Below, piece after piece: positions 20,411-26,715 of a DNA stretch of 64,000 bases (position 1 is its first letter; the number at the start of each line of letters is the position of its first letter). The translations under genes were made by a program, and so were the position numbers. Below the pieces are notes generated by a model. It was not told where the DNA came from and did not search any database. It saw only the letters and a program-made list of their open reading frames with translations. Location: the NCBI RefSeq assembly GCF_004923255.1, contig NZ_QYRT01000003.1, positions 1-64,000 of the forward strand, given 5' to 3'. The DNA is from Subtercola vilae. GTDB lineage: Bacteria > Actinomycetota > Actinomycetes > Actinomycetales > Microbacteriaceae.

Positions 20411-21394
20411 GTGATCGAAGCTCACTCACTCACCAAGAGGTACGGCCCCAAGACGGCCGTCGACCAGGTGAGTTTCACCGTTCGTCCCGGCCTCGTCACG
20501 GGCTTTCTCGGCCCCAACGGCGCCGGCAAATCGACCACCATGCGCATGATTGTCGGCCTTGACCGGCCCACGAGCGGCAGCGTCACCGTGAACGGCAAGG
20601 TGTACAGCGACCACGCGGCTCCGCTTCACGAGGTGGGCGTGCTGCTCGACGCGAAAGCGGTACACCAGGGCCGCTCGGCGTACAGCCACCTGTTGGCACT
20701 CGGCGCGACACACGGCATCGGGGCATCCAGGGTCAAAGAGGTCATCGAGATGACCGGCCTCGACTCTGTCGCCAAGAAGCGGGTGGGCGGCTTCTCGCTC
20801 GGTATGGGACAGCGGCTCGGTATCGCCGCCGCCATGCTCGGCGATCCGTCGACGCTCATTCTCGACGAGCCGGTCAACGGCCTCGACCCCGAGGGCGTGG
20901 TGTGGGTTCGCGAGCTCGTACGTTTTCTCGCCTCGGAGGGCCGTACGGTTCTGCTCTCGTCGCACCTCATGAGCGAGATGGCGCAGACCGCCGACCGCAT
21001 CATCGTTCTCGGCCGCGGCCGGGTCATCGCCGACGCACCTGTCGCCGACCTCATCAGCGGCGCCACGGTCTCGTCGGTTCGCGCCGTGAGCCCGCAGGCT
21101 GGCGAACTCGCCCGCCTGCTGAACTCACCCGATGCCACCATCACGAGTGTGGATGCCCAGACCCTCGAGATCGTCGGCCTCACCTCGGCCGTGGTCGGCG
21201 AAGCGGCGGCGCGCGCCGGCCTCACCCTGCACGAGCTCACCCCGTTGAAGGGTTCGCTCGAAGACGCCTACATGAACCTCACCGCCGATTCGGTGGAGTA
21301 CCGCACGACCGCGGCCTCTGCCGGAGCGGCTTCCGGCGGCAACGCCGGTGCCCCTCTCGCCACTGACCCGTCACACTCGGAGGTCTCCCGATGA
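20411..21394 (+). CDS. ABC transporter ATP-binding protein
   Basis: A 327-residue ATPase driving an ABC-2 exporter. Walker A GPNGAGKST (about 37-45), a Q-loop region, the signature GGFSLGMGQRL (about 133), Walker B STLILDEP (about 152), and the switch His in LLSSHLMSEM are all intact. The layout matches the DrrA/BcrA type of drug or peptide exporters. The GTG start is preceded by GGGAGAT. It overlaps the permease gene by 4 bases, and kinase and regulator genes follow, so transport is probably linked to sensing of an antimicrobial or envelope stress. The last 60 residues are a variable Ala/Gly-rich tail. Confidence 0.93.
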   Translation: MIEAHSLTKRYGPKTAVDQVSFTVRPGLVTGFLGPNGAGKSTTMRMIVGLDRPTSGSVTVNGKVYSDHAAPLHEVGVLLDAKAVHQGRSAYSHLLALGATHGIGASRVKEVIEMTGLDSVAKKRVGGFSLGMGQRLGIAAAMLGDPSTLILDEPVNGLDPEGVVWVRELVRFLASEGRTVLLSSHLMSEMAQTADRIIVLGRGRVIADAPVADLISGATVSSVRAVSPQAGELARLLNSPDATITSVDAQTLEIVGLTSAVVGEAAARAGLTLHELTPLKGSLEDAYMNLTADSVEYRTTAASAGAASGGNAGAPLATDPSHSEVSR

Positions 21395-22218
21395 CAACCA
21401 CAACCCCTGCCCGGCGCAGCACCACCCAGCCGGCCTCGCCCATCCGTCTCAGCGCCGCAGGCATTCTGCGGTCGGAGTGGATCAAGCTCCGAACTCTGCG
21501 CTCCACCGTGTGGGCGTACGCCGTCATTCTGGTCATCCAGATAGCGTTCGGCCTGCTCATCGTTGCTATCTCGGTGAACGACGGCGGAATCAGCCGAGGC
21601 CCTGAGCGAGGTATCACTCTTGCGTCGCTTGCCACGTTCGGGCCGATCGCCGGGGTGGCCTTCGGGCAACTCGTGGTCTCGGTCTTGGGTGTTCTCGTCA
21701 TCAGCGGTGAGTACACGACGGGCCAGATCCGTTCGAGCTTCGCCGCTGTTCCGAAGCGCCTGCCCGTGCTCTGGGCCAAGGTCGCCGTGTTCGGCGTTGT
21801 GACTTTTGTGGTGTCGCTTGTCAGCATTCTGCTGACCTACCTCGTCACGGCGCCCATTCTCTCGGGTGCCGGTGTGACATCGAATCTCTTCGAAGGCAAC
21901 CTGCTGCTCACCTTTGTCGGCGCGGCCGGTTACCTTGCCCTCATCGGCATCCTCTCGATGGCCATCGGCGCCATCCTCCGCAGCACCGCCGGCGGTATCG
22001 CCGGTGCCCTGGGCCTGCTGCTGGTGGTTCCCGTGGTGTTCTCGCTGATTCCCGCCGACTGGGCGCACAGCCTCTCTGACTGGCTGCCGAGCGCCGCTGG
22101 CTCGAACATCTACCAGCCCGGTATCTTCGAGTGGTGGCAGGGTCTGTTGATCCTGCTCGGATGGATTGTGGTCGCACTGGCCACCGCCGCCACCCTGATG
22201 CGCCGGAGGGATGCCTGA
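21391..22218 (+). CDS. ABC-2 type permease
   Basis: A 275-residue membrane partner of the preceding ATPase. After about 25 polar residues, LRSEWIKLRTLRSTVWAYAVI starts a six-TM fold. LVVSVLGVLVISGEYTTGQIRSSFAAVP is a segment found in many actinobacterial ABC-2 permeases of this type. Later TMs include YLALIGILSMAIGAIL and ALGLLLVVPVVFSLI. It is translationally coupled to the ATPase (ATGA) and is 2 bases from the kinase gene. Substrate unknown. Confidence 0.9.
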   Translation: MTTTTPARRSTTQPASPIRLSAAGILRSEWIKLRTLRSTVWAYAVILVIQIAFGLLIVAISVNDGGISRGPERGITLASLATFGPIAGVAFGQLVVSVLGVLVISGEYTTGQIRSSFAAVPKRLPVLWAKVAVFGVVTFVVSLVSILLTYLVTAPILSGAGVTSNLFEGNLLLTFVGAAGYLALIGILSMAIGAILRSTAGGIAGALGLLLVVPVVFSLIPADWAHSLSDWLPSAAGSNIYQPGIFEWWQGLLILLGWIVVALATAATLMRRRDA

Positions 22219-22220
22219 GC

Positions 22221-23585
22221 ATGACCTCCACCGAACGCCCGGCCAGCTCGACGTCACCGTCGAAGACGGCCGGGCGTTTGGCCGTCTGGGCGGCGCTGTG
22301 GCGTTCGAGTACCGAGCGAATGGATGCCCAGACCGCAGCCGCCTCGAACGACGCCCTGCGCCTGCCCCGGCCACCCGGGGTCTTTCGGCTCTTCTTCGCG
22401 CGGCACCTCTGGATTCTCGACTGGGCCGTCGTGGCCGTCTTCGCGCTGCCGGCAGCGGGCTATCTCGTTGGAGCGTTCGTCACAGGCCGTAACGATGTCG
22501 CGGCGCTGGTGGCGGCATCGGTGGCCGCTCTTGCGCTCATCGTGGTCACAGTCGCGCTCAGGTTTCGCCGGGCGCATCCGCTCGTTCTCGTGGCCGCGGT
22601 TGGTCTCAGCTTTGTCGCCATGGGTTCGACCTTCGGGGGAAGCCTGTTGCCGGCCGCGCTCTTCGGCCTCTACGGTGCCGCGGTGTACGCCTCGGTGCGC
22701 GCCGCGTGGATCTCGTTCGGTGCGCTTGCCCTCATTCTTGCGACGGTGACGCTCATCTCGACGGGGGTAGACCTCGCCGAGACCACCGGTATGTCGTTGA
22801 CGTTCGGTTTTCTCATGCTCGTGTTTCTGCTCATCGGCGTGAACGTGGGCAACCGCAAGCGTTACGTCGAAGCGCTGCTCGACCGTGCCACCCAGCTGGT
22901 TCGGGAGCGCGACCAGCAGGCCCTTCTCGCCGCCGCGAACGAACGTGCCCGCATCGCCCGCGAGATGCACGACATCGTCGCGCACAGTCTGACCGTGATG
23001 GTGGCGCTCGCCGACGGGGCCGACGTGAGCGTCGAGCGCAGCCCCGAACGCGCACGCGACGCCATTCGTCAGGTGGCGGAGACCGGTCGTACCGCCCTGG
23101 CCGACATGCGCGTTGTACTGGGTGTGTTGGCCGAGCCTCACGGCGGGCCCGTAGCAGCTGTGGAGCCCGTGCTCACCGGCCCGCAACCCTCGCACAACGA
23201 CCTCGCCGCATTAGTGAACGCCTACCGGTCGGCGGGAATGGTCATCCGGTTCTCTGTCTCCGGTGCGGTTCCGCTCGACGCGGGGCTCGAGCTCACCGTT
23301 TTCCGCATTGTGCAGGAGGCCCTCACCAACAGTCTGCGCTACGCTCCCGACCCGAAGCACGCCGCCGTGAGCATCGTCTACAGCTCCGGCGGCGTGAGTA
23401 TCGTCGTCGACGACGAGGGCCAGTCTGAGACAGGCGCACCATCGATCGGCACCGGCAAGGGTCTCATCGGCATGCGCGAACGCGCGGCGGCCTACGGCGG
23501 CACCGTGGAGGCCGGCCACACCAACGCCGGCGGCTGGCGCGTTCGGGCCACACTCTCGACACCCGATACGAAAGAGCGGTCATGA
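22221..23585 (+). CDS. NarL-family sensor histidine kinase
   Basis: A 454-residue membrane sensor kinase. Residues about 55-210 hold five or six TM segments with short loops, so sensing is probably within the membrane. A short coiled coil (RATQLVRERDQQALLAA) leads to the HisKA_3 dimerisation helix with phospho-acceptor His in REMHDIVAHSLTVM. The ATPase domain has IVQEALTNSLRYA (N box), VVDDEG and GLIGMRERAAAYGG (G box). The frame is open upstream to 22131, but GGAGGG before the ATG at 22221 sets the start. The stop overlaps the regulator ATG. It presumably senses the substrate or stress handled by the adjacent ABC exporter. Confidence 0.92.
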   Translation: MTSTERPASSTSPSKTAGRLAVWAALWRSSTERMDAQTAAASNDALRLPRPPGVFRLFFARHLWILDWAVVAVFALPAAGYLVGAFVTGRNDVAALVAASVAALALIVVTVALRFRRAHPLVLVAAVGLSFVAMGSTFGGSLLPAALFGLYGAAVYASVRAAWISFGALALILATVTLISTGVDLAETTGMSLTFGFLMLVFLLIGVNVGNRKRYVEALLDRATQLVRERDQQALLAAANERARIAREMHDIVAHSLTVMVALADGADVSVERSPERARDAIRQVAETGRTALADMRVVLGVLAEPHGGPVAAVEPVLTGPQPSHNDLAALVNAYRSAGMVIRFSVSGAVPLDAGLELTVFRIVQEALTNSLRYAPDPKHAAVSIVYSSGGVSIVVDDEGQSETGAPSIGTGKGLIGMRERAAAYGGTVEAGHTNAGGWRVRATLSTPDTKERS

Positions 23586-24301
23586 CGACTTCGATACGCA
23601 TTCTGCTGGTCGACGATCAGTCGCTGCTCCGCATGGGCTTTCGAATGGTGCTCGAGGCCGAGCCCGGGTTCGAGGTCGTCGGTGAAGCGGCAGATGGGGC
23701 ATCCGGTGTCGTCGCAGCCCAGGCCGAGAAACCCGATGTCATCTTGATGGATGTTCGGATGCCCGGCATGAACGGCATCGATGCCACGGCGGCCATCGTT
23801 CGCACGGTTCCCGAGAGCAAGATCCTCATTCTGACCACGTTCGATCTCGATGAATACGCGTTCGCTGCTCTGCGCGCCGGTGCCAGCGGATTTCTGCTGA
23901 AAGACGCTCGCCCGGCCGAACTCATCACCGCCATCAGGGCCGTGGCGGCGGGCGATGCCGTGGTGTCGCCGCGTGTGACGAAACAATTGCTCGACCTGTT
24001 CGGCTCCCGGTTGCCCGCGACACACGAGGGTGCGCCCCCCAGTGCCGCTGCAGGAGCCGTCGCCGATGCCTCGAGCGCTCTCGGGGCACGCCTCGAGCCG
24101 CTCACCGAGCGCGAGCGGGAAGTGCTCGTCGCCATTGCGGAGGGGCTGTCGAACAGCGAGATCGCAGAGCAGTTCGTGGTCTCGGAATCGACAGTCAAGA
24201 CCCACGTCGGGCGTGTGCTGATGAAGCTCGGAGTGCGCGATCGGGTGCAGGCGGTCATCGTCGCGTACGAAACGGGTTTGGTTCTGCCCAAACAGGGCTA
24301 G
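23582..24301 (+). CDS. NarL/LuxR-family response regulator
   Basis: A 239-residue regulator, partner of the preceding kinase. The receiver domain has LVDDQS (acidic pair), phospho-acceptor Asp in VILMDVRMPGMNG, Thr in ILTTFDLDEYAF and Lys in FLLKDARP. A long Ala-rich linker (about 140-165) leads to a LuxR helix-turn-helix: LTEREREVLVAIAEGLSNSEIA, then STVKTHVGRVLMKLGV. It ends the four-gene operon and probably activates it. Confidence 0.94.
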   Translation: MTTSIRILLVDDQSLLRMGFRMVLEAEPGFEVVGEAADGASGVVAAQAEKPDVILMDVRMPGMNGIDATAAIVRTVPESKILILTTFDLDEYAFAALRAGASGFLLKDARPAELITAIRAVAAGDAVVSPRVTKQLLDLFGSRLPATHEGAPPSAAAGAVADASSALGARLEPLTEREREVLVAIAEGLSNSEIAEQFVVSESTVKTHVGRVLMKLGVRDRVQAVIVAYETGLVLPKQG

Positions 24302-24327
24302 GGTGATCTTAACCGAGGAGCACACCG

Positions 24328-24639
24328 ATGGGTATTTTGCTCTATGGCAGCCCCAGTATCGAAGTCAGCTTCGATGACCGTGCTCTCACCCACCTTCAGA
24401 TCGTCATCACGGCGAAGCTTCGACGCCGTGAGAGTTTTGTTTTCTCGTGGGCAGACTCTGCCGATATCGGCAGTGGGCGCAGTTCTATCTGGCTCGACCC
24501 GAGCAGCACGCTCTACTACCGGTTCTACGGGAGTCGTGTTCCATCGATTAATCGCGAATGGATCGACGTGCTGATGGACTCGGCGAACAGCGGTGGAGGT
24601 CTCTTCTTCACTCCAGAACCAGTGACGGGTCGGTCGTAG
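24328..24639 (+). CDS. small conserved protein (DUF7882-like)
   Basis: A 103-residue soluble protein with no known biochemical role. The pattern MGxLLYG..., FDDRALTHLQIVITAKLRRRESF, SSIWLDPSSTLYYRF, INREWIDVLMDSANSGGGL matches a family I recall as common in Microbacteriaceae, classed as DUF7882 and sometimes mislabelled ATP-dependent DNA ligase; that label is from memory and should be checked. No ligase motif is present. The ATG is preceded by GAGGAG. It is 3 bases upstream of the rhodopsin gene, so the two are probably cotranscribed. Confidence 0.75.
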   Translation: MGILLYGSPSIEVSFDDRALTHLQIVITAKLRRRESFVFSWADSADIGSGRSSIWLDPSSTLYYRFYGSRVPSINREWIDVLMDSANSGGGLFFTPEPVTGRS

Positions 24640-24642
24640 TAC

Positions 24643-25596
24643 GTGATAACTGCTGTAGCGCCGTGGTCGGCCACCCTGACGTCGTCAGAATATCTTCTGA
24701 CGCTCTACTTTCTGGCCGTGGCAGCGCTCGCGCTGTTCGCCGGCTTCGTTCGAGCGTGGCTGACCCGCGGTGAAGTGGGGTCGCGGTATCGGCCGGCCGT
24801 CATCGCGCGCATCTGCATCACGGCGATTGCCACGGTGTCGTACATCGCGCTGGTGGTGAGCTTCGTCACCGGGTACGACAAGACGCCTGCCGGATACGTG
24901 CCGAATGACGGCGCGATCTTCGGTTTCGCTGCCCGGTATATGGACTGGTCGCTGAACGTGCCACTGCTCTCGGTAGAACTGCTGGCCGTGTGTGCGGCGG
25001 TGGGCGCTGTTGCGCGTCAGGCGCGGCTCGTGGCGGCCGCCAGCGCGTTTCTGATGATCTTCACGGGCTTTCTCGGCGCCTTCATCATCGGCGGCGGAAC
25101 AGACACGGCCCAGCTCATTGTCTGGGGCGCCGTGAGCTGCGTCTTCTGGTTCGTCACCATCGTGGTTCTCGTTCGGGGAGTTCTCGCCTCCCGCGAGGGG
25201 CTCACGCCAGAGGCGAACCGGCTTCTGCGGCGGGCGGCGACCCTGTTGCTATCGGGGTGGGTGGTGTACCCCGTGGTCTACCTCATCCAGATCTTCGGCG
25301 ACGGTGGCGGTTGGGCGGCGACCATGCAGATAGCGCTCTGCGTGGCCGACGTCACGATCAAGATCGGGTTCGGCACGCTGATCCACCGGGTGGCGAAGCT
25401 GCGCACGGCTGAAGATGTACGGGCAGGTGACGACGTGCATCCGGAGTCGATCTGGATCTCGTCGGTCAAGCAGTCTGATGCAGGAGTGCCGCGGGAGGTC
25501 TACCTGGCCGCCGGGGCTTCGATTCACGAGCGACGGGTGAGGCCGCCGACCGGTTCGGCCGTGGCCTCGCCACTGCCAGACGATCGAGAAAACTGA
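24643..25596 (+). CDS. microbial (type 1) rhodopsin, actinorhodopsin-like
   Basis: A 317-residue seven-TM retinal protein, probably a light-driven ion pump in the cytoplasmic membrane. Helix C reads RYMDWSLNVPLLSVELL (R98, D101, N105, E112), lining up with bacteriorhodopsin R82, D85, T89, D96. Helix F has GWVVYP (W206, Y209, P210; bacteriorhodopsin W182, Y185, P186). Helix G has ADVTIKIGFG with D236 and the retinal Schiff-base lysine K240. The key triad is thus D-N-E rather than the usual D-T-E or D-T-D. By hand alignment, the helix B position that is His in proteorhodopsin is Ser66. A polar tail of about 65 residues follows helix G. GTG start, weak ribosome site. No retinal or carotenoid genes lie in this window. 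Confidence 0.9.
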   Translation: MITAVAPWSATLTSSEYLLTLYFLAVAALALFAGFVRAWLTRGEVGSRYRPAVIARICITAIATVSYIALVVSFVTGYDKTPAGYVPNDGAIFGFAARYMDWSLNVPLLSVELLAVCAAVGAVARQARLVAAASAFLMIFTGFLGAFIIGGGTDTAQLIVWGAVSCVFWFVTIVVLVRGVLASREGLTPEANRLLRRAATLLLSGWVVYPVVYLIQIFGDGGGWAATMQIALCVADVTIKIGFGTLIHRVAKLRTAEDVRAGDDVHPESIWISSVKQSDAGVPREVYLAAGASIHERRVRPPTGSAVASPLPDDREN

Positions 25597-25642
25597 AGAA
25601 TACACCCGTTCGGCTCTGACATTGCTCTGTCTGTCGACCCCC

Positions 25643-25671
25643 TTGAATCGTCGGGCAAACGTGGCAATGGT
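25643..25671 (+). promoter_or_regulatory. promoter of the small protein gene at 25678
   Basis: TTGAAT (25643-25648), a 17-base spacer and AATGGT (25666-25671), then 6 bases to the ATG. There is no Shine-Dalgarno sequence, so the transcript is probably leaderless. Confidence 0.45.
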
Positions 25672-25677
25672 TGATGC

Positions 25678-26019
25678 ATGAGACGTATTTCATATAGCGG
25701 CGGGTCTTTTCTCACCACAGACGGCGTTGCCGACGCCTTGCTGCACTTTGTGGCCGCCCTCGGGTCGAGTCACCGGGCCGAAGCTGTCGACATACCGATC
25801 GTGCGCGACGACGGTCAGACCGACACTGTTCAGCTGGTGATCGGGCCAGCGAGCGAACTGGTGAGCGCGTCGGAGAACACCACGATGCCGGAGCCAGACT
25901 CGGCTGAAGCCGAAGCACGGCTGCACCGGCTCACGGAGGCGCTCGTCGGACCGAAGCCAGTGCCTTCGTCGCAAGCCGACGCCACCGCGCACGGCTACGA
26001 CTTCGACGTCGAACTCTGA
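25678..26019 (+). CDS. small conserved hypothetical protein
   Basis: A 113-residue soluble acidic protein, function unknown. It begins MRRISYSGGSFLTTDGVADALLHFVAAL and has a beta-rich middle (DIPIVRDDGQTDTVQLVIGPASELV), then a polar, probably disordered C-terminus. The N-terminal SGGSFLTTDxVADALL pattern is one I associate with Microbacteriaceae hypothetical proteins. No catalytic motif is apparent. It has its own likely leaderless promoter and stands apart from the rhodopsin unit by 81 bases. Confidence 0.72.
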   Translation: MRRISYSGGSFLTTDGVADALLHFVAALGSSHRAEAVDIPIVRDDGQTDTVQLVIGPASELVSASENTTMPEPDSAEAEARLHRLTEALVGPKPVPSSQADATAHGYDFDVEL

Positions 26020-26062
26020 CCCACGGCCGGCGCCGAAACCAGGCGTCGTCGACATTCAGGGG

Positions 26063-26644
26063 TCAGCTGCTCCAGCTGGCGTCGACCATGATGCCGCGCA
26101 GTGCCGCCAGGGTCTCGTGCAGCAGCTCGGGCAGCGGCACTGCCCCATTCTGATCGAGCCAGCGACCGATCGACACGCTGAAGACCGTCACCGTGAGGTG
26201 CGCGGTGAGGGTGGCCTCGAGTTCGTCTACACCTCGCGCCACGAAGCTCTGGGCGATGGCGCTGGCAAGTGCCGACTGCTTGTGCAGTTCCCGCTCGCGA
26301 AGGCCCTCGTCGGATTCGATCACGGCCTTTCTCGCCACGACGTAGTCGACCCCGCTGGAGAACTGGGCCGCGGCCACTGCCTCGAGTCCGCCCGAGATGA
26401 TCTGCATGGGGGTCAGTTCGGCGGGGGCCGCTGCGATCATTTGAGCGGCGAGGGCGGGTACGTCGATTTCATTTGCGAAGAGAACTTCTTTTTTGTCAGC
26501 GAAGTGGCGAAAGAACGTACGGGTGGTGAGCCCAGCGCGCGCGGTGATCTGGGGAACTGTGGTCTCGCCGAAGCCCTGATCGGCGAACAGCTCTAACGCG
26601 GCACGCTCGAGGCGCTCACGCGCGTCGGGCTGCCATCTGCTCAT
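26063..26644 (-). CDS. TetR family transcriptional regulator
   Basis: A 193-residue repressor. The helix-turn-helix is ALELFADQGFGETTVPQ, ITARAGLTTRTFFRHFADKKEVL; the TFFRHF form is common in actinobacterial members. The C-terminal domain resembles MftR-type ligand domains. It diverges from the two-domain oxidoreductase across 117 bases that contain inverted repeats, so that gene is its probable target. TAGAAT lies 6 bases before the ATG, suggesting leaderless autoregulated expression. Confidence 0.9.
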   Translation of the reverse strand: MSRWQPDARERLERAALELFADQGFGETTVPQITARAGLTTRTFFRHFADKKEVLFANEIDVPALAAQMIAAAPAELTPMQIISGGLEAVAAAQFSSGVDYVVARKAVIESDEGLRERELHKQSALASAIAQSFVARGVDELEATLTAHLTVTVFSVSIGRWLDQNGAVPLPELLHETLAALRGIMVDASWSS

Positions 26645-26650
26645 GCGTCC

Positions 26651-26715
26651 ATTCTAGTGACGCGTGATGACATCGAGTGTCGTCATGTGTAGAGTGATGG
26701 CACGCCATGTCATCA
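26651..26715. promoter_or_regulatory. divergent promoter/operator region of the TetR and oxidoreductase genes
   Basis: On the minus strand TAGAAT (26651-26656) precedes the TetR ATG by 6 bases. TGATGACAT (26665-26673) and ATGTCATCA (26707-26715) are perfect 9-bp inverted arms 33 bases apart, with a further GTCGTCATG between them. The first arm lies upstream of the TetR -10; the second lies near a possible rightward -10 (TAGAGT, 26690-26695). These are candidate TetR half-sites. Confidence 0.45.

Follow-up and report, generated by a model that had tools for sequence, protein, structure and literature searches.

CryoRhodopsins (CryoRs) are defined by an arginine at the position of Thr46 in bacteriorhodopsin (BR), and five of them have been characterised, including CryoR4 of Subtercola vilae (UniProt A0A4T2CD69), which is listed with the motif RRDNEDK (Lamm et al. 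2025, PMC12227055). In all five (CryoR1-5), green or yellow light leads to a UV-absorbing (~400 nm) state that persists for minutes and that 420-nm light resets; CryoR4 shows a minor spectral change at acidic pH (PMC12227055). In CryoR1 and CryoR2, the paired counter-ions store the proton, and the arginine of helix B turns toward the Schiff base and blocks its reprotonation; the R57T replacement in CryoR1 makes decay ~100-fold faster at pH 8 (PMC12227055). The arginine flip was shown on CryoR1 and CryoR2 only and inward pumping on CryoR1 only (proton currents under blue-containing light), and the main text contains no structure or electrophysiology of CryoR4 (PMC12227055). Selected CryoRs in E. 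coli suspensions gave no detectable ion transport and no pH change, and the same authors proposed that CryoRs sense UV with the help of a small cytoplasmic partner of the DUF7882 family, encoded on the same transcript (PMC12227055). With their exceptionally long UV-absorbing state, these photoswitches have been proposed for optical memory and optogenetics. Three rhodopsin genes had also been counted by the authors of the draft genome of S. vilae DB165T (PMC6518244).

The window analysed here, a 64,000-nucleotide stretch of the S. vilae genome, carries one of these genes, directly preceded by a DUF7882 gene. The features of this pair, including the codons of the key residues, are as follows.

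24328..24639, plus strand: DUF7882 protein, putative cytoplasmic CryoR transducer, 103 aa (PF25355, E=3e-37; adjacency; clade)
24643..25596, plus strand: CryoRhodopsin gene (CryoR4-type), 317 aa, GTG start, motif RRDNEDK (PF01036; CryoR2 and CryoR1 matches; motif; tree)
24808..24810, plus strand: Arg56 codon, the diagnostic CryoR arginine, equivalent to BR T46, CryoR1 R57 and CryoR2 R58 (role described in PMC12227055)
24943..24945, plus strand: Asp101 codon, Schiff-base counter-ion, equivalent to BR D85
24955..24957, plus strand: Asn105 codon AAC, at the BR T89 position
24976..24978, plus strand: Glu112 codon, at the BR D96 position
25360..25362, plus strand: Lys240 codon, the retinal Schiff-base lysine

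The translated protein matches Pfam Bac_rhodopsin (PF01036, E=1.8e-26), and counting residues gives R56, S66, R98, D101, N105, E112, D236 and K240; without S66, these spell the seven-letter motif RRDNEDK. Alignment with BR and proteorhodopsin (PR), the BR sequence used agreeing with the PDB at 248 of 249 positions, places D101, N105, E112, D236 and K240 on BR D85, T89, D96, D212 and K216, and S66 on PR His75. A preliminary description of this DNA had reported a rhodopsin with D101, N105, E112, Lys240 and Ser66, and each of these assignments was borne out by the residue count and the alignment. Three features had escaped it: the arginine that aligns with BR T46, the long conserved C terminus and the DUF7882 gene upstream.

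Among proteins of solved structure, the best relatives were CryoR2 (8r0p, E=1.8e-118) and CryoR1 (8r0k, E=5.9e-108), with the next family at 2.3e-29. Both align with the window protein over 300+ residues without a gap, and the CryoR2 alignment runs to residue 311 of 317, so that the elongated conserved C terminus is present. An AlphaFold2 model (mean pLDDT 85) matched seven listed CryoR1 and CryoR2 entries at Z 36.5-38.6, with all others at 32 or below. Because the predicted structure matches CryoR1 and CryoR2 at Z ~38, and the sequence alignment with them is gapless, no residue other than Asn105 competes for position 89, a point on which the preliminary description had called for a check.

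A maximum-likelihood tree united the Arg56 sequences in one clade (support 100/99), which includes the window protein and stands apart from the Arg-less relatives. The other published family traits also recur at this locus: a helix-B arginine at the BR T46 position (R56), an RRXXXDK motif in which DNE is among the published triads (PMC12227055), an adjacent gene for a putative transducer (DUF7882) and a cold-living Microbacteriaceae host, S. vilae DB165T having been isolated from a cold high-altitude volcano lake. The window rhodopsin is thus a CryoRhodopsin by motif, R56, gene linkage and phylogeny.

We located the three rhodopsins of the genome as the window gene, a second CryoR on contig C12 (59% identity to the window protein) and a xanthorhodopsin/actinorhodopsin-like gene on contig C45. 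The window motif matches that of CryoR4, and the one remaining CryoR of the genome has RRDTEDK, leaving RRDNEDK unique to the window gene. Taken together, the species, the shared motif and the ruling out of the paralogue indicate that the window gene is almost certainly CryoR4. The finding is therefore essentially already known, as CryoR4 was named, expressed and measured in the 2025 paper, and the window gene itself brings nothing new at the rhodopsin level.

How common the D-N-E triad is bears on the suggestion, made in the preliminary description, that Asn105 could mark a functional subgroup. Among 33 distinct Arg56 rhodopsins from genomes, the helix C triad was DTE in 18, ESE in nine and EAE in two, with ETE, DSE, GSE and DNE once each, the single DNE being that of the window. 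In the published set, Asn occupies the BR T89 site in 1 of 40 CryoR sequences (PMC12227055), and the site varies freely within the clade (A, S, T, N). The window protein and four further Subtercola sequences group together (support 92/90), and these four are all DTE. Its nearest relatives in the alignment, at 64-67% identity, share locus and gene order and are likewise all DTE, and a search of 12 Subtercola genomes gave none closer than 69% identity. The AAC codon of Asn105 is one base away from the Thr codon ACC. Since it is the only DNE of the 33 and its four neighbours in the subclade are all DTE, Asn105 is, as judged from the sequences, a single substitution of Thr on one terminal branch.

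It is consequently very improbable that Asn105 marks off a functional subgroup of its own among the CryoRhodopsins. Being the sole Asn among the 33 sequences does set it apart, and it could plausibly affect colour or pKa directly, since CryoR spectra change with residues close to the retinal (PMC12227055), but a one-base change in a singleton does not make a subgroup, and on the genomes surveyed we rejected it as a marker; DNE relatives may exist among uncultured bacteria. Asn105 probably only tunes the colour and the counter-ion pKa. The preliminary description was right to place an unusual D-N-E rhodopsin in a functionally distinct actinobacterial group, yet it is Arg56, not Asn105, that defines this group. 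Similarly, Ser66 does stand where PR has His, but it is no peculiarity of the window protein, residue 66 being Ser in most of the 33 Arg56 rhodopsins. A text search for 'DNE motif' together with rhodopsin found no paper. The idea that a homologue with the same Asn might already have been characterised as an ordinary pump holds in spirit, as CryoR4 comes from the same species, but not as regards pumping.

An outward proton pump of the proteorhodopsin/actinorhodopsin type with a tuned counter-ion, the frame in which the gene had been described, would be compatible with the PF01036 match, the two counter-ion carboxylates and the Glu kept at the donor position. However, in outward pumps the helix C triad is D-T-D/E and the PR H75 position holds His, where the window protein has D-N-E and Ser66. 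In addition, Arg56 adjoins the Glu112 donor position, and in CryoR1 the equivalent Glu is no donor and the arginine blocks reprotonation (PMC12227055). The window protein falls inside the CryoR clade, whose studied members have a minutes-long UV-absorbing intermediate and whose selected members caused no pH change in E. coli (PMC12227055), and the genome encodes a separate rhodopsin better suited for pumping (the xanthorhodopsin/actinorhodopsin-like gene, ARDTEDK with His at PR H75). On the strength of Arg56, the phylogeny and the published CryoR data we rejected the ordinary pump, which we regard as having hardly any chance of being correct.

The window protein holds all the sequence parts of the CryoR photocycle (R56, the counter-ions D101 and D236, E112, the long C terminus and the DUF7882 neighbour), and by analogy CryoR4 would share the CryoR mechanism, the spectral steps being published (PMC12227055) and the structural ones inferred. 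Light would isomerise the retinal on K240, and the Schiff-base proton would pass to the D101/D236 counter-ion pair, giving the UV-absorbing (~400 nm) M state. R56 in helix B presumably turns toward the Schiff base; this flip, combined with trapping of the proton at the counter-ions, would hold the M state for minutes, and the state would end by thermal decay or on absorption of a blue/UV photon. The rhodopsin, a pentamer, would most likely pass its signal to the neighbouring DUF7882 protein by way of the conserved strand at its C terminus, and CryoR4 would be a light/UV sensor that transports protons weakly at best. What is expected of CryoR4 is an M state that absorbs in the UV and lasts for minutes, along with a sensory function rather than outward proton pumping. 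The whole reading, in which the window gene is CryoR4, a CryoRhodopsin-clade member with a slow UV-absorbing M state that most likely serves as a light/UV sensor, is the best explanation of the locus, and we hold it with high confidence. With regard to retinal supply, the retinal-forming Brp/Blh dioxygenase (PF15461) had no match in the genome; the control genomes were all blank as well, so this result carries no statement on absence.

The DUF7882 gene ends with its stop codon 3 bp upstream of the rhodopsin start. In the fetched loci (flanks of 1.5-3 kb), every Arg56 rhodopsin with its flank covered adjoined a DUF7882 gene, and within the same flanks none was found beside the Arg-less relatives, not even beside L022 and L023, which are at 54-55% identity. 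The role of DUF7882 as the CryoR transducer is putative, resting on this adjacency and on AlphaFold3 models in PMC12227055. The family itself is large: the S. vilae genome has 11 copies, two of them beside CryoRs, and 263 of 400 Microbacteriaceae genomes carry it, mostly without CryoRs, a rhodopsin of any kind having been matched in 116. With a distribution so much wider than that of CryoRs, the family cannot in general need rhodopsin for its function. In a 63-row tree of these short sequences, 33 of the 35 CryoR-adjacent copies formed one clade (100/99); the two exceptions (L015 and L017) lie downstream of the rhodopsin gene and in the opposite direction. Within the large DUF7882 family of Microbacteriaceae there is thus a clade of CryoR partners.

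Further DUF7882 loci were seen at L059-L066 and L101-L103. Two decayed CryoR copies were also observed: the first (L085/L097, G153:C45) is interrupted by an internal stop and neighbours a DUF7882 that matches weakly, and the second (L099, G400:C51) is truncated and lies beside a DUF7882 that looks intact.

Downstream of the rhodopsin lies a second small protein.

25678..26019, plus strand: 113-aa small protein, no Pfam or NCBIfam match, member of a multi-copy Microbacteriaceae family

This family was present in 60 of 120 Microbacteriaceae genomes, often beside DUF7882; by eye, from listed coordinates, it occurs within ~1 kb of DUF7882 at ~12 further places where no CryoR is listed. It repeatedly adjoins DUF7882 with or without a rhodopsin (loci including L064, L111 and L113). 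The 113-aa protein is possibly a second partner.

Upstream, the pair follows a cluster of transport and signalling genes.

20411..22218, plus strand: ABC transporter ATPase and membrane protein (PF00005 over the cut-off; PF12679 just under it)
22131..23585, plus strand: HisKA_3 sensor histidine kinase (PF07730 and PF02518), overlapping the regulator by ATGA
23582..24301, plus strand: LuxR-type response regulator (PF00072 and PF00196), 26 bp upstream of the DUF7882 gene, kept in the CryoR4 subclade

The gene order (ABC)-kinase-regulator-DUF7882-CryoR, all on the same strand, is kept in the five-sequence subclade of the window, with the ABC part only partly conserved. The other loci of the subclade with ABC, HisKA_3 kinase and LuxR-type regulator genes ahead of DUF7882-CryoR are L033, L035, L036 and L041. 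The conserved order in 5/5 sequences, the common strand and the short spacings (26 bp from the regulator to DUF7882 and another 3 bp from DUF7882 to the rhodopsin) could suggest a light-regulated circuit of the CryoR4 subclade with the ABC transporter, kinase and regulator, in which DUF7882 links rhodopsin to kinase. Against this, the kinase-regulator pair occurs in 12/12 Subtercola genomes, some of which have no CryoR, other CryoR-DUF7882 loci lack this pair, and co-location may reflect mere read-through transcription; we therefore think such a circuit unlikely. That the pair is dedicated to CryoR is weakened by the same CryoR-free genomes, and for this reason the functional link between CryoR and the cluster is only a lead. 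Quite unlikely too is a broader proposal in which, in the Subtercola subclade, the adjacent kinase-regulator-ABC cluster receives its light input from the DUF7882-CryoR4 pair and DUF7882 proteins are general Microbacteriaceae signalling adaptors; if true, this light input would be the first identified CryoR signalling output.

A promoter and terminator scan of 23500..26700 showed nothing notable above shuffles near the rhodopsin, and Rfam returned no RNA family within the window. The additions made here to the published account are modest: the linkage of Arg56 with DUF7882, the breadth of DUF7882 and its CryoR-partner clade, and the position of the CryoR4 subclade behind an ABC-kinase-regulator cluster. 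These surroundings make CryoR signalling output more testable.

Compared with known systems, the window gene shares species and the motif RRDNEDK with CryoR4 (A0A4T2CD69, PMC12227055), and no difference was found in either. CryoR2 (8r0p, 8r96-8r98) and CryoR1 (8r0k-8r0o) resemble the window protein in the R56 equivalent, the fold and the long conserved C terminus, and an adjacent DUF7882 gene was likewise seen at the Cryobacterium levicorallinum locus (L049), but they carry ESE and EAE in place of DNE and are at 55-58% identity. The Arg-less DSE/DTE-type relatives (Amnibacterium, Streptomyces and others) have a related C-terminal segment and form sister lineages in the tree; unlike the window protein, they have Ser, Gly or Ala at position 56 and no DUF7882 beside the gene. 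Examples outside the CryoR clade with a CryoR-like C-terminal segment and without an adjacent DUF7882 are L053 (Streptomyces beigongshangae), L054, L055 and L057, and in Amnibacterium this segment reads HPESIW. Finally, the xanthorhodopsin/actinorhodopsin-type gene on C45 belongs to the same microbial rhodopsin family as the window gene but differs from it in its 33% identity, its ARDTEDK motif, its His at PR H75 and the absence of DUF7882 from the flanks covered.
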